Origin: Planctomycetia bacterium
GTDB lineage: Bacteria; Planctomycetota; Phycisphaerae; Phycisphaerales; SM1A02
Reading direction: 5' to 3'
Assembly (NCBI GenBank): GCA_005787685.1
Contig: SYAC01000059.1
Coordinates: forward strand, 1 to 64,000
DNA length: 64,000 nt
This document shows, in pieces, positions 22,408-48,426 of the stretch (position 1 is its first letter; every line of letters starts with the position of its first letter). The notes under the pieces are model-generated. The model searched no databases. It saw only the letters and a program-made list of their open reading frames with translations, and was not told the origin of the DNA. The position numbers and the translations under genes were made by a program.

Positions 22408-23805
22408 TCACACCAACAGCGTGGCCGGATTTTCAAGCAATGCCTTGAGCGTGTTCAACCAACGCGCCGCCATGGCGCCATCAATTACGCGGTGATCAAG
22501 CGAAAGCGTGGCCGTCATTTCATAGCCGATGGTCAATTGATCATCGCGCACCACGGGCTGCTTCAACGCGGCGCCGCAGGCAAGAATGGCGGAGTTGGGT
22601 GGATTGATAATGGCCGTGAAATGCTCTACGCCAAACATGCCCAGGTTTGAAACGGTGAAGGTGCTGTCGGACATGTCATCCATGGACAAGCCGCGGGTGC
22701 GCGCCTTCTCTGAAAGGGACTTGGTTTCGCTGGAAATGGCGCGCAAACTCTTGCGATCCACATCGCGGATAACGGCCACCAACAAGCCACCGCCCTTCTC
22801 CTCATCCAACGCCACAGCCACGCCCACATTCACCTGCTGATGCATGAGAATTTTATCGCCGGCCCAACTTGCATTCACATACGGGTGCTTGGCCATGGCC
22901 AACGCGCAGCCACGCACAATGAAATCGTTCACCGAAAGTTTAATACCCATGCCAGCGAGCTCGCCATTGAGTTGCTCGCGCAGCGCCATCAATCGATCAA
23001 GTTCAAACTTCATGGACACTTGGTAATGCGGAATGGTGGTCTTGCTTTCAACCAATCGTTTGGCGATAGTTTGGCGCATGGAATTCACCGCCACCTCGGT
23101 GCTTTGCAGACCCGCGACAACCAAGCCGCCCGAGCGCGGAGTTGGCGTAACTGGAACAGCCAACGAACTTGACGCGCTGACCTGCGCGCTGGTTGTGGCC
23201 GAGGACATTGAACCACCCTGTGGGGCTTTGGTGAATTGTGAGGCTGGCGTCGCGCCGCGATTTTCAAGCGCATTCAACACATCGCGCTTGATGATGCGCC
23301 CGGCGGGACCCGAACCTTGAAGCGATGCAAGATCAACGCGCTCTTGCTCGGCGATGCGCCGCGCCACTGGGCTTACGCGAACACGCGCGCCGTCGGGCTG
23401 AAGAATCTCCTCGGCTTGGGCGTCGATGGGTTGAGCATGGCTTGCGCCGTGCGTGTGGACAGTGGGGGAAATACCCGTAGTTTCAGCCACTTTTGTGGAG
23501 GAAGTCGCAGGAACCACCACGCCGGAATGCGCCTGGCTGGAGGCGCCACTTTGGTCATGGGTTTCGCCATCCTCCGCAATCAGCGCGATCTGCGTGCCCA
23601 CTTTCACTTGCTGACCCGCGGGCACAAGCAGTTTCAAAATTTTCCCGTCGTCAAAAACCGGCATTTCCATGGTGGCCTTGTCGGTTTCAATGTCGGCCAC
23701 AACCATTCCGCTTTTCACGGCGTCGCCCTCTTTCACATTCCAACGAACAATGGTCCCAGATTCCATGGTGTCCGAAAGGCGTGGCATTGTGACTGAGATT
23801 GGCAT
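22408..23805 (-). CDS. pdhC: Pyruvate dehydrogenase complex E2, dihydrolipoamide acetyltransferase
   Basis: 465 residues. The N-terminal lipoyl domain has the lipoylated Lys in ETDKATME (about 42-49). An Ala/Pro/Ser-rich linker leads to the peripheral-subunit-binding domain (VSPVARRIAEQERVDLASLQ, GSGPAGRIIKRDV). The C-terminal catalytic domain ends with the DHRVIDGA motif carrying the active-site His. Transfers the acetyl group from E1 to CoA. Third gene of the E1alpha-E1beta-E2 operon, 27 bases after pdhB; no dihydrolipoamide dehydrogenase follows. Confidence 0.95.
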   Translation of the reverse strand: MPISVTMPRLSDTMESGTIVRWNVKEGDAVKSGMVVADIETDKATMEMPVFDDGKILKLLVPAGQQVKVGTQIALIAEDGETHDQSGASSQAHSGVVVPATSSTKVAETTGISPTVHTHGASHAQPIDAQAEEILQPDGARVRVSPVARRIAEQERVDLASLQGSGPAGRIIKRDVLNALENRGATPASQFTKAPQGGSMSSATTSAQVSASSSLAVPVTPTPRSGGLVVAGLQSTEVAVNSMRQTIAKRLVESKTTIPHYQVSMKFELDRLMALREQLNGELAGMGIKLSVNDFIVRGCALAMAKHPYVNASWAGDKILMHQQVNVGVAVALDEEKGGGLLVAVIRDVDRKSLRAISSETKSLSEKARTRGLSMDDMSDSTFTVSNLGMFGVEHFTAIINPPNSAILACGAALKQPVVRDDQLTIGYEMTATLSLDHRVIDGAMAARWLNTLKALLENPATLLV

Positions 23806-23832
23806 GTTATTTATATGGTGCGTGCGTTGCGT

Positions 23833-24825
23833 TTATGCGTTGTATGTGGCGCTGCGAACCGCCTCGCAAATTTTTCGAGTGTTGGGCAAATACTCTTGCT
23901 CCAGATTGAAAGCGTACGGCGCGGGTACATCCTCGGTGTGAACGCGGTGCACATGATTGTCCAAATCATCAAAGCAACGCCGATGAATTTGCGCCGCGAC
24001 TTCCGAGCCGGGGCTGCCAAAGCTCCACGATTGATCAACTATGACAAGGTTGGATGTTTTGCGCACGGAGCGCTCAATGGCGCCAATATCCAGCGGACGA
24101 ATGGTGCGCAGATCAAGCACCTCGCAGGAAATGCCCTCTTTGGCCAGCTCTTGCGCGGCTTCCATGCAGAAATGCACGGGCCGACCCCATGAGGCGATTG
24201 TGCAATCGGTGCCTGGGCGGCGGACACAGGCTTGCCCAAATTTCAAAAGCACATCATCGCCAACGGGCACCTCGCCCTTCATTCCAAGCAAACGCTCGCT
24301 CTCCATAAAGAACACGGGATCGTCGTCGCGAATGGCGGTCTTCATGAGGGCTTTGGCGTCGGCGGGCGTGGATGGAATGACAATTTTTATTCCAGGAACA
24401 TTGGAGAACAAACCCTCCACGCACCAACTATGCGTGCTTCCAAGTTGGCCACCCGCTCCGTCATTTCCGCGGAACACAATAGGACAACCAAATTGCCCGC
24501 CGCTCATGAACAACATCTTGGGCGCATTATTTAAAATAGGATCAGCGGCCACCAAACTAAATGACCAGCTCATGAATTCAACCACGGGGCGCAAACCCAA
24601 CATGGCGGCGCCGATGGCCATGCCCGCGAAGCCACTTTCAGAAATGGGCGTGTCAATCACCCGCTTGGGACCAAACTCGTCCAGCATTCCGCGACTCACT
24701 TTATAGGCGCCGTTGTACTCGGCCACTTCCTCGCCGATCAACATGACGCGCTTGTCACGGCGCATCTCCTCGCTCATGGCGTCGCGGATTGCGTCACGAA
24801 ATTCAAGTTCCTGCGTGGCGCTCAT
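23833..24825 (-). CDS. pdhB: Pyruvate dehydrogenase E1 component, beta subunit
   Basis: 330 residues from ATG 24825, which overlaps the pdhA stop (ATGA). Typical E1-beta landmarks are GEEVAEYNGAYKVSRG, DTPISESGFAGMAIGAA, the HSWCVEGLFSNVPG segment and the C-terminal EVLDLRTIRPLD transketolase domain. Together with E1-alpha it decarboxylates pyruvate using thiamine diphosphate. A branched-chain 2-oxoacid substrate cannot be excluded from sequence alone. Confidence 0.95.
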   Translation of the reverse strand: MSATQELEFRDAIRDAMSEEMRRDKRVMLIGEEVAEYNGAYKVSRGMLDEFGPKRVIDTPISESGFAGMAIGAAMLGLRPVVEFMSWSFSLVAADPILNNAPKMLFMSGGQFGCPIVFRGNDGAGGQLGSTHSWCVEGLFSNVPGIKIVIPSTPADAKALMKTAIRDDDPVFFMESERLLGMKGEVPVGDDVLLKFGQACVRRPGTDCTIASWGRPVHFCMEAAQELAKEGISCEVLDLRTIRPLDIGAIERSVRKTSNLVIVDQSWSFGSPGSEVAAQIHRRCFDDLDNHVHRVHTEDVPAPYAFNLEQEYLPNTRKICEAVRSATYNA

Positions 24826-25988
24826 ATCAAACCATCTCCCTCGCGGGTGGCGCGAAATGTTGGTGGATTCAATGCGCCGCCGTACATGCGCGGCTCGCTG
24901 GTGCCGGTGTAGGGCCCCCATGGTTCACGGTACACATCGTGATATAAATCTGACAGCGGCGGCACTGGACTATTGTCGGCAAATTCAACCGCGTCGCGCA
25001 CCTCTTGCTTCACATCCTTGTTCAAGGCCTTGATTTGATCCTGTGTGATGGCGCCTTGATCTACAATAAATTTCTCAAATGTGCCAATGGGATCGCCCTG
25101 CTCCCAAATAGCCTCCTCATCGCGCGTGCGGTACTTGCGTGGATCACTCATGGAGTGGCCCTTGTAGCGATAGCACCGCATATCGACAAACGCTGGACGA
25201 CTTTCGCGGCGGCACTTGTCCACCACATCCTTCATGCCGTGATAGACCTCCAACAAATTCATTCCATCAATCACCGCAGAATCAATTCCGTAGCCAAGCG
25301 CCTTGGATGAAAGGTCGTGGCTTTGGGTTGTGCCGCGGTGAATGCTGGTTCCCATGGAGTAGCCGTTGTTCTCCACCACAAAAATGACGGGCAGATTCAT
25401 AAGCCCCGCCAAGTTCAAGGCCTCATGGAACGCGCCTTGATTCAGCGCGCCGTCGCCCAAAAAACACAGTGTCACGCGCGAGGATTTGCCATTGTTGATG
25501 ACCTCGTCCTCGTACTTGGTGGCGAAGGCCAAGCCCGCACCGAGCGGCGTTTGCGCGCCCACAATTCCGTGGCCACCAAATAAATTGTTCTTGCGATCAA
25601 ACATATGCATTGATCCGCCCTTGCCTTTGGCGCAACCATCCACGCGTCCAAACATTTCCGCCATGCACGCTCGCGCCGTCATGCCGCGCGCCAAGGCGTG
25701 GCCGTGATCCCGATACGCGGTCACCAAAGGGTCTTGTGGTTTCAACGCGGCAACACAACCAGTCGCCACCGCTTCTTGACCAATATAAACATGGCAGAAG
25801 CCGCCAATTTTTTTATCTTGATAGGCCTGCATGCAGCGAATTTCAAACTCGCGCATGAGCAACATTTGACGGTACCAATCGCGCAATATCTCAGCGCGCG
25901 GCACGGCTCGATTGGCGGCGCGCCGAGGTATGGGAAGTCCACCGTGGACATCATGCGCAGATTTGCCGTCAGTGGTTGGTGTTTCCAT
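24822..25988 (-). CDS. pdhA: Pyruvate dehydrogenase E1 component, alpha subunit
   Basis: 388 residues. The thiamine-diphosphate motif begins GDGALNQGAFHEALN and ends VVENN. The phosphorylation-loop region YRYKGHSMSDP is typical of pyruvate-specific E1-alpha, as is GGHGIVGAQTPLGAGLAFA. First gene of the operon; ATG at 25988. Length is slightly above the bacterial average of 330-370 owing to extensions at both ends. Confidence 0.95.
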   Translation of the reverse strand: METPTTDGKSAHDVHGGLPIPRRAANRAVPRAEILRDWYRQMLLMREFEIRCMQAYQDKKIGGFCHVYIGQEAVATGCVAALKPQDPLVTAYRDHGHALARGMTARACMAEMFGRVDGCAKGKGGSMHMFDRKNNLFGGHGIVGAQTPLGAGLAFATKYEDEVINNGKSSRVTLCFLGDGALNQGAFHEALNLAGLMNLPVIFVVENNGYSMGTSIHRGTTQSHDLSSKALGYGIDSAVIDGMNLLEVYHGMKDVVDKCRRESRPAFVDMRCYRYKGHSMSDPRKYRTRDEEAIWEQGDPIGTFEKFIVDQGAITQDQIKALNKDVKQEVRDAVEFADNSPVPPLSDLYHDVYREPWGPYTGTSEPRMYGGALNPPTFRATREGDGLI

Positions 25989-43161: not shown

Positions 43162-46100
43162 TTACGCGGTTGGTGGCGCGGTTGGTGGCGCGGACTTTTG
43201 GGAAATAATCGCCTCGGGAAGAACTCCGTCCCCGCTGTCGGCCACAATTTCAGCGGCGCTTAACCACTCCGTGGCCAAGGTTCGGATTGATTTCTCATCC
43301 AGTGAAAGAAGCGTGCCGTCCACGGCGGACTCATGCAAGCGCGCGAAGAACGCGCCCCAGGAATTGCGCCGCTCTGGTTCCACCGCGGCGCGCACCACCA
43401 TTTCCGTGACCGCGTCGCGCTCGGCGCGCTCTGAAAGTTTGCCTCGAACACCCAGCGGAACAAGCCACGAAAGCGTGCGAATGACTTTGGCGGGCCAATC
43501 GCTGGAGCGAAAATCAAGGCGAATAAAGCGTCCAAACACCGTCGCCTCAATGCGGTTCAAGAAGCGCCGCTCCATGCGGTCGCCGCGGCCAGCGCGCACA
43601 TCAAGCCGCCGCCGAGTGAGTCGTCGCTGCTCCAAACTGGTGCTCATGGTGGCCACAAACACCAGATCGCGAATCAACATTACCTCCGCCAGCGGCAGTG
43701 GCGCGTACACCAATAATGGCCAACCATCTTTGGCGGAATCCGCCCGCGCCAAGCCGCGCAATAAGCGCGCGTATGTTTCGGCGTATGTCATGCCACCCCA
43801 CAACCAACAACGATGAAGACCCGTGACGGCATCGCGCCGCGCAGATCGGCCAGCGCGCGTTCCTGAAAGCGGAGCCATGGACTGCAACAACTCGCGCATC
43901 AACAAACGAAATCGTCCGCGTGAACGGCGCGCGAAGAAGCCACTTTCTGAAATTTCTAGATCAATGCGCCGCACCAAACGCGCCAAGCCTTCCGGTCCGC
44001 GGTCCTTGGTTTCACCGGCGCCAAGCGGCAAATTCATCAGGCGCGTGCGCTCGGTGGCAAGGACGCGACCGTATTGCATGGCTTGCACACAACGGCCATA
44101 GCCGCGCTCTTCTATGCGGCGAACCGCCGCCTCCAACGCGACTTCGCTCACTGGAAGAAGCCCTTGTTGAAAGGCCATTCCAAGCAAAACCAGATCCGCC
44201 AGGCGCTCAGTTAAAAAAGTCCGTCGACACAGATTGGCGACATCCATTAACAACACGCCGTCGCCGCGACACATGTACGACGCCGCCATTGGCAACTCGC
44301 CCGCGGCCTTGAAATCCGCCGCGTCCACTTGATCATCAAGCAACCCAGTGTTGGCAACCAGATAGGTGCGCTCGCGCTGACCCACACGCAGAAATGGATC
44401 GGGCCCAAGCGCGCGCACGGTCTCCACCGCGTCAAGGCCAATCACCACATCAGCTTCGCCGTAGGGAATTTGCGTGGCGCTTGTGGTGGCAATGGCGTCC
44501 AGACTTGTGAAGGCAACTTGACTCCACGCGCGTCGACCAGGGCCGATCGGTATGGATTGCGAAACCGCCTGGACGCGGTAGCCCATAGAACGGCCGGCCT
44601 CGCATAAGGCAAGCGCCGCAAGTCCCGGCGCCTCGCCACGCCAACCTGCGAAGTGCGCGCGCCAGCGACCGCTGTCGGCATGAATAATGCGCGGCGGAGC
44701 AGGCCGCGCAGCGCCAGGCTGCAACTCCTCTGGACGCGGCGGCTTGGTGCGCAAGACTTCAACTTGCTCAAGCAATGGCCGCGCGTGAAATTGAAATTGC
44801 GTTCCGGTGCGATCCGCAAGCACCTCTACCTTAAATTCTGTTTTAAGCGGATTTGTGCCGCGTTCAAGCCCTTTTTCAACCATCTCCGCAGGCGCGCCCA
44901 CGCGCACGTCGCATGCCGCCTCCGCCGACCAAATGGCGCGCTGCAGTGGAACAAATCCCATGCGATCCACTTCGGCGAACGCGCGATCAAGCAAATACAC
45001 ATCGCGTCGCGGCGGAGGGCCATCGCGTCCTATGACCACCGTGAGCCCCTCACGCAAAACCGCCGTGCGCAGCAACTCGCGAAATGCTGGACGATCATTC
45101 AGATCGCCGCGCATAATTTCAACGGCGCTGGCGGCGTCCTGCGGAATAGCCGCGCGTGTGAGTTGCTCAATCTCGGGCGTGTCCTCACCACCCAAATCGC
45201 ACACCGCTAAAATTCGCGGCATGGTATCGCGCGCGCCTTGACGCACGGCGGCTGCGCCCTCGCGCGCATAGCGGCGGCGATCCCAGGCTTCGATCACAAC
45301 CAATCGATCCGATTCCGGAGCGCCGCTATTTTCAAAAATAATTCCAGTGCGTATTTCCTGCTGCGCAACCTCATTGCGCGAATCAAATTGATCAGCCACC
45401 TCCCGAATAATGGAACGCAGTGAATCCATGGCGCCCGAGACGCCAATGCCCTCGCCCCGATCGGGCACCTCGATCTGTTGCGTTTGTTCCACAACTTCCA
45501 AAAGCTTTTCCTTGATCACCAAAGAAGGTCGAACTCGGGTTAAAAGATGGCCAATTTTGCGCGCCAAGATGGATGGCCGCGTCGCGTCATTCATTTCCAG
45601 AATGGGTTCAACCGCGCCGTCGCTGGGCAGGCGATCCCACCAAATCGCGGCGATCTTTTCACCACCGCGGCGGGCCTGCTCCGCCAGTTGCAACACTTCA
45701 CTCGCCAACATGCCTGGGCGCGGCTCCAACACAACCACATTGGCGCAACGCGACAACAACCGCACCAACGACGCGCTGTCCAGTGGGTGAGCCATGGTAA
45801 GCGCCAACAATGGCACACGCCCCAATAAACCCAATTCCTCCAACAAGTGGTGGATGGCCATGACGCATGAGCCCATTGCGATCATGCCCCACGGCTCCAT
45901 TTCTCCGGGCGAGGGCATCGCGCTGAATTGATTCAACTCCAAGCGACGCGCGATGGCCAACGGCTCCTCGCGCTCGGCCGCGCGCGTGGGCCGACGATTG
46001 CGCCGCAACTCCAGCGCTGCGTCGATGCGATCAAGCACACGATTGGGTTCCACTTCAAGCGTGTCCATGGAGCGCAGCAATCCAACATGCACGATCAACG

Positions 46101-46650
46101 CCACCACGCGTTCGCAGGCTTGCGCCACGCGAAACGCATCTTGAATTCCAATTCGCAAACCCGCAACCGTGCTTGGCGCCAAGCATGGCAAGTCCAATTG
46201 CGCCGCACTTTGCAGTGGACACGCGGCGGACGAGAGATATGGATTGTCCTCCAACACCAGCACCACCCGCCCCTCGCCACTGGCGCGCCCGCCACCCTCG
46301 CGCGCCAACACCTGCATGGCCGCGTGCAATTGATCGTTGGGAATAAAGGCGACAGCTCGTTTGCCCTGCGCCGCCGCTCTCAGCGCCAACTCAAGCGCGC
46401 GCGTGGCGTCCACGCAGATTTGCAGAGAAAGTCCGTGGCGCTGGGCCACCTCAAAGGCGCGCGGCTCCACAAAAATTCGAAACAGCATGTCCAGCGGCGG
46501 CTTGCGCGGAGCATAGACATCCGTAATTGGCCATTCGCATTCAAAAATACCCTTCAAAATGGCTTCAAATGCAGTGCATAGCGCAAAGCCCTCGGCGCGC
46601 ACCACCGGCGGCGCCCACACATCATTTTGATTGCGTCCAAATACACTCAC
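43162..46650 (-). CDS. Large degenerate indolepyruvate/2-oxoacid oxidoreductase-like fusion
   Basis: 1162 residues. Residues 20-200 resemble the pyrimidine-binding domain of IorA (QICVDATRALELALRAAAQG, VVLVLEDNPYLSS, VALIVHVGLL). Residues 255-345 resemble its transketolase C-terminal domain (GMIAMGSCVMAIHHLLEELG, VVVLEPRPGMLASEVL). Residues 475-545 resemble only the tail of the thiamine-diphosphate domain (LREGLTVVIGRDGP). No CPGCPH motif, no GDxxx..N cofactor motif and no 4Fe-4S cysteine clusters are visible. Residues 665-860 resemble the IorB/gamma domain (EADVVIGLDAVETVRALGP, YLVANTGLL). The last 300 residues recall the C-terminal domain of fused IOR proteins. Start GTG 46650 overlaps the HAD gene stop. 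Probably not an active oxidoreductase; function unknown. Confidence 0.75.
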   Translation of the reverse strand: MSVFGRNQNDVWAPPVVRAEGFALCTAFEAILKGIFECEWPITDVYAPRKPPLDMLFRIFVEPRAFEVAQRHGLSLQICVDATRALELALRAAAQGKRAVAFIPNDQLHAAMQVLAREGGGRASGEGRVVLVLEDNPYLSSAACPLQSAAQLDLPCLAPSTVAGLRIGIQDAFRVAQACERVVALIVHVGLLRSMDTLEVEPNRVLDRIDAALELRRNRRPTRAAEREEPLAIARRLELNQFSAMPSPGEMEPWGMIAMGSCVMAIHHLLEELGLLGRVPLLALTMAHPLDSASLVRLLSRCANVVVLEPRPGMLASEVLQLAEQARRGGEKIAAIWWDRLPSDGAVEPILEMNDATRPSILARKIGHLLTRVRPSLVIKEKLLEVVEQTQQIEVPDRGEGIGVSGAMDSLRSIIREVADQFDSRNEVAQQEIRTGIIFENSGAPESDRLVVIEAWDRRRYAREGAAAVRQGARDTMPRILAVCDLGGEDTPEIEQLTRAAIPQDAASAVEIMRGDLNDRPAFRELLRTAVLREGLTVVIGRDGPPPRRDVYLLDRAFAEVDRMGFVPLQRAIWSAEAACDVRVGAPAEMVEKGLERGTNPLKTEFKVEVLADRTGTQFQFHARPLLEQVEVLRTKPPRPEELQPGAARPAPPRIIHADSGRWRAHFAGWRGEAPGLAALALCEAGRSMGYRVQAVSQSIPIGPGRRAWSQVAFTSLDAIATTSATQIPYGEADVVIGLDAVETVRALGPDPFLRVGQRERTYLVANTGLLDDQVDAADFKAAGELPMAASYMCRGDGVLLMDVANLCRRTFLTERLADLVLLGMAFQQGLLPVSEVALEAAVRRIEERGYGRCVQAMQYGRVLATERTRLMNLPLGAGETKDRGPEGLARLVRRIDLEISESGFFARRSRGRFRLLMRELLQSMAPLSGTRAGRSARRDAVTGLHRCWLWGGMTYAETYARLLRGLARADSAKDGWPLLVYAPLPLAEVMLIRDLVFVATMSTSLEQRRLTRRRLDVRAGRGDRMERRFLNRIEATVFGRFIRLDFRSSDWPAKVIRTLSWLVPLGVRGKLSERAERDAVTEMVVRAAVEPERRNSWGAFFARLHESAVDGTLLSLDEKSIRTLATEWLSAAEIVADSGDGVLPEAIISQKSAPPTAPPTA

Positions 46651-47540
46651 ACTGTGGATCGTACCGATTGTGCGTTGATGACTCCGCTTAAAATTTGCTC
46701 GGCGGCGTGGGCGAAACCATCCTCATTATGGTGCGGCACAATGTGCTTGGCCAGCGGACGAAGATCGGCGTGCGCATTTTGCATGGCAATTCCAACGCCG
46801 GCCTCACGCACCATGGTGAGATCGTTCAGACCATCGCCAATGGCGAACACCTGCTCATTGGCCAGGCCATGTCGATCGCGCAACTTTTGAATCATGGTCC
46901 ACTTGTCGCTCTCCACGGAATAGATTTCAAGCAGATGCGTTTCGCTTCCAACGGCCGCGCTGGATGTCACGGCGCTCCATGATTGCATGGTGGTCTGTCC
47001 GTGAAATTGCGCGCGCATGGCGGCGCACACTGGCGCCAACACATCGCCATTCTCCACCGCTCCCACACGCAGCACATGGTCAAAACCCAATGCCTCCAAC
47101 TCGTGCAGCGTCCGCACACGCCGCACATCCACTTGATGCGTCTTCAACCACCACTCGGTGGCTGGATTGACTTTCCCCGTGCCCACCAAACAATAATCGT
47201 GGCAACTTCCGTCGTGATCGCGCAGCAAGTGCGCCAACAAACCGCGTTCAATCACCGCCTGAATCAAACTGCGTGCGAGTTCGGGATGGATAGTAAGTCG
47301 CTCCACGGTTTTTCCAGTGGCCGCGTCGCTCATCACGCTTCCGCCCGCAGTGACCGCCATGCCTTTGGCTTGGATCACCTCCAAAATTCGCCGCGATTCC
47401 CGCCACGATCGACCCGTGGCCGGAACAACCTTGAAACCCGCCGCGCGCAGGTCCGTGACGGCCTTGAAATTGCGCGGCGAAACCTTGCCGCCCGCATCCA
47501 GCAGCGTTCCATCCAAGTCGACGGCGATTAAACCTTTCAT
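46647..47540 (-). CDS. HAD-superfamily hydrolase, Cof type
   Basis: 297 residues from ATG 47540. Motif I DLDGT at residues 8-12 with nucleophile D8; motif II in PATGRSW; motif IV GDGLNDLTM near the end with a C2B cap between, as in Cof/YbiV sugar phosphatases. Its substrate is unknown. The stop overlaps the start of the oxidoreductase-like fusion gene, so the pair is translated together. Confidence 0.9.
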   Translation of the reverse strand: MKGLIAVDLDGTLLDAGGKVSPRNFKAVTDLRAAGFKVVPATGRSWRESRRILEVIQAKGMAVTAGGSVMSDAATGKTVERLTIHPELARSLIQAVIERGLLAHLLRDHDGSCHDYCLVGTGKVNPATEWWLKTHQVDVRRVRTLHELEALGFDHVLRVGAVENGDVLAPVCAAMRAQFHGQTTMQSWSAVTSSAAVGSETHLLEIYSVESDKWTMIQKLRDRHGLANEQVFAIGDGLNDLTMVREAGVGIAMQNAHADLRPLAKHIVPHHNEDGFAHAAEQILSGVINAQSVRSTV

Positions 47541-47601
47541 GTCCGCAGCATAGGGGCAACGCCATGAGAAGTCGCCACTTCTCGCTACACTCATTTGCCT
47601 T

Positions 47602-48426
47602 ATGGACAACCGACTCAAAGACATTCAACAAGGCACGCTCACCGAGAGCCGCCTGAACAGCGATTTTCTTTTCTGGCTCAAGACCAAGGGACCCAACTAT
47701 TTATTGGTGGCCATGTTGGTGTTGTGCGGATTCATGGGTTTGAACTGGTGGGAAAATCGCGTGATGCAGGCGCGCGATAGCGCGTGGAGCGAATTTCTGA
47801 GCGCGCAAACTCCGCTGGAATTGATTGAGGTCGCCAACAAAAATGCTGGAACCGATTCCATCTCGCAATTGGCCACGCTCAACGCCGCCGACGCCTACAT
47901 GATGTCCTTGCAAATGAACAAGCGATTTGATCGCGAAGCGGGCGCGGCGGACGCGGCGCTGACACCCGATATGCGCGTGGAATATCTCGCGGAGGCCGCC
48001 CGCTTGTACGCCAAAGTGGCCAGCGAAGGTTCGACCACGATTGGTCCCGCAAGTCTGCTCACGGTATCCGCGCTGTTTGGTCAAGCGGCTGTCGCTGAAA
48101 CAAAAAATGATCCGACCCAAGCCGGGCTGCTTCTGACTCAAGCCAAGGAACTGGCCGCCAAGACCTATCCGCATTTGGCGACCGTGGCGGACAATCGCAA
48201 GCAATCCTTGCCCGAATTGACCAAAGTTCGCGACATGCCCCCGCGACCGGTGGACCAAAACACTTCCATGGACGCCTCGGCGAGCACCCAAAATGTGTTG
48301 ATGCCAGTCAACGCAACAACCGACGCGACCAACTCTGCGCCCATGCCTATTCGCGTGACTCCCATTGAAACTGCTCCAGTATCCACGCCATCCACTGAGC
48401 CCGCCGCGCCCGCTTCACCAAAGTAA
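47602..48426 (+). CDS. Membrane-anchored TPR-like protein, YfgM-like
   Basis: 274 residues. A short cytoplasmic N-terminus (DFLFWLKTKGPNY) leads into one membrane helix (about 33-48, LLVAMLVLCGFMGLNWW), then a helical domain, then a Pro/Thr/Ala-rich disordered tail from about 205. The layout and the WWENRV segment after the helix resemble YfgM-type ancillary translocon proteins; similarity is moderate. It lies 12 bases upstream of the pseudouridine synthase gene. Confidence 0.7.
   Translation: MDNRLKDIQQGTLTESRLNSDFLFWLKTKGPNYLLVAMLVLCGFMGLNWWENRVMQARDSAWSEFLSAQTPLELIEVANKNAGTDSISQLATLNAADAYMMSLQMNKRFDREAGAADAALTPDMRVEYLAEAARLYAKVASEGSTTIGPASLLTVSALFGQAAVAETKNDPTQAGLLLTQAKELAAKTYPHLATVADNRKQSLPELTKVRDMPPRPVDQNTSMDASASTQNVLMPVNATTDATNSAPMPIRVTPIETAPVSTPSTEPAAPASPK

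Follow-up and report, generated by a model that had tools for sequence, protein, structure and literature searches.

The closest described systems to the gene reported here are the fused indolepyruvate:ferredoxin oxidoreductases (IORs) NF009589/PRK13030 and NF009588/PRK13029, which share the domain order of the large protein, are of similar length and align with it over nearly its full extent. Unlike them, the large protein is without the thiamine diphosphate (ThDP)/Mg2+ residues, the front of the PP domain and the cysteine clusters, and the Gly-rich motif of its gamma domain is replaced. Crystal structures of Sulfolobus 2-oxoacid:ferredoxin oxidoreductase (OFOR) show that Mg2+ is held by an Asn together with a Gly-Asp-Gly motif, and that TPP is activated by a conserved Glu (PMC5020499). 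Foldseek matches the whole model best to PFOR (PDB 2c3y, 6cin and 7plm), whose cofactor sites are absent from the large protein, and matches its PP remnant best to OFOR beta subunits (5b48_B and 6n2n_B).

Most pseudoenzymes that have been studied belong to groups such as the kinases, peptidases, and transferases. The large protein differs from pseudoenzymes in general in that it comes from a multi-cofactor oxidoreductase of 1160 residues. It fits the sequence-based definition in which a family's conserved catalytic motifs are missing (PMC10211241), since it shares common descent with a catalytic family and has lost the catalytic motifs while being kept under selection. The text of that review contains neither "thiamin" nor "ferredoxin." Searches of the open-access literature found no earlier report of an OFOR pseudoenzyme or of such a protein, and none of DUF6537. 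It would be unusual for a pseudoenzyme to derive from a giant ThDP/iron-sulfur oxidoreductase and to be encoded by almost all genomes of an uncultured family.

Domain layout and cofactor sites

The window denotes the whole 64,000-nucleotide stretch of DNA that was analyzed, f1 is the code for the family of the window's genome, and f2-f5, f85, and f93 are other families. The large gene, 43162-46650 on the minus strand, has an unbroken reading frame of 1162 codons, in agreement with the roughly 1160 intact residues given in the preliminary description. The features are:

43162..46650, minus strand: whole degenerate fused-IOR (putative pseudo-OFOR) gene, 1162 aa, GTG start
45961..46623, minus strand: PYR-like domain, residues about 10-230 (TIGR03336 match; family profile against 9u8r; alignment columns)
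45616..45960, minus strand: domain II, residues 231-345 (alignment columns)
44707..45615, minus strand: ThDP PP domain remnant and ex-Fe-S segment, residues 346-648 (columns, fold prediction, Foldseek)
44041..44673, minus strand: POR/gamma domain, residues about 660-870 (Pfam match, columns, dN/dS)
43237..43986, minus strand: DUF6537-like helical C-terminal domain, residues about 889-1138 (domain match, model)
46647..46650, minus strand: GTGA overlap of the HAD gene stop and the large gene start
46647..47624, minus strand: upstream HAD-IIB (Cof-type) phosphatase, catalytic motifs intact

The fused-IOR domain order that had been proposed from the sequence was borne out by matches to TIGR03336 IOR_alpha at residues 66-327 (E=4e-9, single-sequence profile search), PF01558 POR at residues 678-850 (E=5e-5, slightly under the curated cut-off), PF20169 DUF6537 at residues 944-1065, and the fused IOR NF009589 (E=8e-15, single sequence). 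The NF009589 score, 53.6 bits, compares with a curated cut-off of 816, which is a weak criterion, as intact relatives from the class (about 426-489 bits) also score below it. A single-sequence search of the PDB with the large protein gave no match, and the f1 family profile matched the TPP N-terminal domain 9u8r (E=1e-4). When the f1 profile was compared with intact fused IORs, profile to profile, 1077 columns were aligned at E=1e-108. The order PYR, domain II, PP, gamma, DUF6537 is present, with PP as only a truncated remnant, and by these sequence comparisons the large protein is homologous to fused indolepyruvate-type 2-oxoacid:ferredoxin oxidoreductases from end to end.

The whole chain was predicted by AlphaFold2 from a 48-row alignment with a pLDDT of 86 and a pTM of 0.84. 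In Foldseek, every top match of this model was a PFOR (E about 1e-12 over about 925 columns), at a sequence identity of about 10% and a global TM-score of only 0.32, so the domain packing differs from that of PFOR. Predicted alone, the PP remnant (residues 346-648) folded with a pLDDT of 78 and gave weak Foldseek matches to OFOR beta subunits (E about 5e-3 to 1e-2, probability 0.91-0.99); on the model, it is a truncated ThDP domain.

Cofactor motifs were tabulated for 92 proteins, and column counts compare 33 intact homologues from other families with 51 f1 members. The ThDP-activating catalytic Glu and the Mg2+-binding Asn are each present in 33/33 intact homologues vs. 0/51 f1 members, and the Mg2+-binding Asp in 33/33 vs. 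1/51. At the catalytic Glu position, f1 proteins mostly have Ala, close to a new near-invariant Arg84, within a PYR fold that is kept. The front blocks of the PP domain (CPGCPHRD, HGDTGCY, and SGMGLGG) are missing, replaced or unrecognizable in f1, and its GDG strand reads WDRRRF or similar in the profile alignment. Both [4Fe-4S] cysteine clusters, CxxCxxCx5CP and Cx5Cx5C, are gone from all f1 members, and near-invariant cysteines number 12 in intact homologues and one in f1. In the gamma domain, the GVGGMGIG of intact enzymes has become AGxRGxxPG. The preliminary description had reported the ThDP front, the metal motif and the Fe-S cysteines as missing from the one protein; the loss proves to be family-wide. 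It had also asked whether sensitive alignment would recover displaced motifs, and none was found by profile alignment or by the separate fold of the PP remnant; since the f1/intact profile alignment spans 1077 columns at that significance, the motifs are not merely displaced. Loss of the Glu alone is no proof of inactivity, as glyoxylate carboligase is without it (cited in PMC5020499), but here the Mg2+ residues, the PP front, and the clusters are gone too. The sites for ThDP-Mg2+ and [4Fe-4S] are lost, which on the sequence should leave the large protein unable to bind either, and we infer with great confidence that the parent activity has been lost with them. Automated annotation may assign this core gene to the indolepyruvate or pyruvate ferredoxin oxidoreductases and so wrongly predict ferredoxin-dependent 2-oxoacid oxidation.

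Conservation, gained residues and descent

An orthologue of the large gene is found in 113/121 f1 genomes, at 25-91% identity, and in 81 of the 83 that are at least 90% complete and at most 5% contaminated; nearly always, f1 genomes carry one full-length copy. Close relatives with named records are from Phycisphaerales/Planctomycetia metagenome bins, and no relative was detected in viral contigs. Thirty-two columns are invariant in an alignment of 39 members that reaches down to 25% identity. Against four congeners, dN/dS over the whole gene (about 1158 codons) is 0.09-0.11, lowest in the gamma domain (0.04-0.08) and 0.13-0.25 in the PYR domain. The whole-gene value is lower than that of the adjacent intact HAD gene (0.20-0.22); rlmN gives 0.12 and ispH 0.04. 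The large gene is thus constrained like a functional gene. The PYR and PP regions evolve faster than the rest. Near-invariant positions make up 17% of domain II and 12% of gamma but 2% in PYR and PP, and those of domain II include P246, G249, G260, R278, P280, P289, R297, R301, and E309.

Conservation is accompanied by replacement. At 13 positions, including R84, R297, R301, R671, R706, R809, R816, and R1069, Arg is present in at least 85% of f1 proteins and rarely in intact homologues, and there are likewise new acidic residues at E134, E238, E454, D562, E732, D819, and E847. Fixed switches from intact homologues to f1 include G to R671, G to R706, E to R809, N to D819, and V to E454. The Arg share of conserved positions is 19-23% in f1 vs. 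5-6% in intact homologues, an excess that is due in part to the greater Arg content of f1 proteins overall (12.4% vs. 8.1%). That near-invariant Arg, Glu, and Asp residues have newly arisen suggests that a new constraint, not decay, is at work.

Many other families of the class, and sister families within the order itself, encode an intact fused protein. Fully degenerate forms outside f1 occur in genus g56 of f5 (L093, L094, L103) and genus g59 of f4 (L092, L106, L111), and two f4 proteins are half-eroded: L100, with GDAAY and HER, and L110, with GQGTF and NES. Like f1 members, the g56 and g59 proteins are full length and have lost the cofactor motifs. In a tree built without the PP and Fe-S columns, the degenerate forms of f1, f5, and g59 make up one clade (support 99/99), which together with the two half-eroded proteins (97/97) is nested inside the intact enzymes of the order. 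Multiple independent losses are disfavored by this topology, and a single origin is the favored reading of the tree, in which the degenerate rows are long branches. Whether the loss is ancestral to Phycisphaerae, as the preliminary description had asked, can be answered in the negative: sister families keep intact enzymes, intermediates are half-eroded, and the degenerate clade is nested. With intact, half-eroded, and degenerate forms all living, the order of loss and gain is testable.

In f3 and f4, a FabF-like ketoacyl synthase gene often adjoins the fused-IOR gene, whether this is intact, half-eroded or of the g59 degenerate type (L096, L099, L102, L104, L108, L110, L112, L092, L106, and L111). 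The shared neighbor suggests that the gene decayed where it stood and did not arise anew, and hints that the intact f3/f4 enzyme feeds fatty-acid or related synthesis. Unlike f1, the g59 members keep this neighbor of the intact enzymes and adjoin an E1-lipoyl-FabH fusion gene, and no HAD neighbor was seen in L092-L094 (g59/g56).

In the class families f85 and f93, the fused-IOR open frame is 1570-1700 aa long (L128, L126, L129, L134, and L138). The one frame of these that was scanned, L128:1699-6519, runs on into a module of GltD type, NAD(P)-linked and with flavin/Fe-S; this domain content suggests a single-chain NAD(P)-coupled 2-oxoacid oxidoreductase.

The phosphatase neighbor and possible functions

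The stop of the upstream HAD gene and the start of the large gene overlap by four bases, GTGA, and the overlap is conserved in the congeners checked. The HAD-IIB catalytic motifs are intact in the window (D36xD38GT, K241, and G263D264GxN267D268), as are the catalytic residues in 55 aligned sequences. Of 63 f1 loci examined, some of them near-duplicate records, two had no room for the neighbor, and the HAD gene is adjacent and co-oriented in 54 of the remaining 61. The HAD orthologue is elsewhere or reversed in G009, G001, G067, G026, and G093, and G012 has a weak HAD match but no clear orthologue. Usually, the pair lies tail to tail with rlmN-ispH. In f3, f4, and f5 genomes, a HAD orthologue is present but unlinked, and the intact enzymes of other families are not beside a HAD gene. 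Some f1 members have frames of 1400-1600 aa, but a fusion to HAD was rejected for these: Pfam and tblastn detected no HAD domain in them, and the HAD gene is in another frame or place. The gene overlap behind the translational coupling noted in the preliminary description is therefore confirmed in the window, but the phosphatase is not a constant neighbor across f1, and a partnership between the two proteins is plausible, not obligatory.

The best reading of these comparisons is that the large gene encodes a conserved pseudoenzyme, which might serve as a scaffold, a sensor or a new catalyst; the whole of f1 appears to keep the enzyme's shell for another job. The new function put forward in the preliminary description is made probable by loss of the sites under strong purifying selection with newly fixed residues. 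A fused indolepyruvate-type 2-oxoacid:ferredoxin oxidoreductase is its direct ancestor, and loss of the ThDP-Mg2+ and [4Fe-4S] sites would have made the parent reaction impossible. The folded multi-domain body is kept, and new near-invariant Arg, Glu, and Asp residues have been fixed in its most constrained parts, domain II, gamma, and DUF6537. Most likely it acts non-catalytically, in regulation or assembly, by binding a ligand or partner that carries negative charge. At a guess, domain II and gamma might bind a CoA ester, a nucleotide or a phosphorylated metabolite. The protein would often be made together with the upstream phosphatase, and its degeneration probably came after lipoate-type 2-oxoacid dehydrogenases had taken over catalysis. 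As a whole, a non-catalytic regulatory or assembly pseudoenzyme is the best explanation and a fairly probable one; the proposal that domain II, gamma, and DUF6537 carry out such a role, perhaps together with HAD, is tentative, and we give it somewhat less than even weight. A rather doubtful extension is that the cofactor-free body bears a new Arg-rich site, formed by domain II and gamma, and now works as a new enzyme or as a metabolite sensor coupled to HAD, with the steps preserved in the intact, half-eroded, and degenerate homologues of the same order.

A neofunctionalized enzyme, with a cofactor-independent active site drawn from R297, R301, H666, R671, D734, R809, R816, D819, and E847 and possibly acting on the substrate or product of HAD, is consistent with the charges that f1 has gained or reversed, and fixed, by comparison with intact homologues, with the strongest selection falling on gamma, and with the operon-like overlap with an intact phosphatase. 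The same residue pattern is expected from a binding role, however, and the protein has no known catalytic motif, so we regard this alternative, though it is the main rival, as unlikely. That the PP remnant and the PYR domain still fold like ThDP domains could instead point to a ThDP or Fe-S enzyme that has diverged, with its motifs displaced or its catalytic half supplied by another subunit. Against this stand a GDG strand that reads WDRRRF with no Asp or Asn at the Mg2+ positions, the lack of a conserved cysteine cluster, and a genome with neither POR_N above the cut-off nor an OFOR beta-type partner, which together make it very improbable. Least credible is a pseudogene or slowly decaying functionless relic: every catalytic residue is lost and PYR and PP evolve faster, but intact frames in 113/121 genomes, a dN/dS of about 0.09 over about 1158 codons, the 32 invariant columns in 39 sequences, and a high-confidence fold are at odds with it, and the conservation data contradict it.

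Metabolic context of the genomes

The window's own genome (2.37 Mb, 91% complete) has one copy of the large gene. No other POR domain and no POR_N above the cut-off were detected in it, and TPP_enzyme_C was found only in one 584-aa frame, which we take by its size to be acetolactate synthase. These POR, POR_N, and TPP_enzyme_C searches therefore revealed no separate catalytic OFOR subunit for the large protein to join. Real OFORs, recognized by POR_N, are encoded elsewhere in 35/91 f1 genomes and in 0/5 sampled genomes of the window's genus. The pseudoenzyme thus occurs both in genomes that have them and in genomes that do not, and its retention does not track OFOR metabolism. In the f1 genome G008, a 1165-aa frame contains a further, weak homologue (G008:C90:4177-5061) and also matches POR_N; by this match, a true fused OFOR may be encoded there in addition to the pseudoenzyme.

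Genes for the E1 alpha subunit of PDH/BCKDH-type complexes were counted, leaving out 2-oxoglutarate-dehydrogenase-sized and transketolase matches. At least two full-length copies are present in 17/17 sampled genomes with the degenerate form, and at most one in 13/13 genomes with the intact form and, by the strict count, in 19/20 of a second set; if shorter matches in 748-886-aa frames are counted, 5/20 of the second set reach two. Two f2 genomes without the large gene have two E1 alpha genes. The pattern is as expected if lipoate-type dehydrogenases replaced the ferredoxin enzyme before it decayed, but the relatedness of the genomes confounds the correlation.

The window itself also encodes the E1 beta and E1 alpha subunits of a 2-oxoacid dehydrogenase complex (23563-25880, minus strand), at a distance of about 17 kb from the large gene. 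The fusion that adjoins the degenerate IOR gene in g59 is a single 1182-aa gene (L092:6677-10222, and also in G697, G727, and G217) comprising E1 alpha, E1 beta, lipoyl, and FabH (KAS III) domains, an arrangement that might connect branched-chain 2-oxoacids directly with the starter units of fatty acids.
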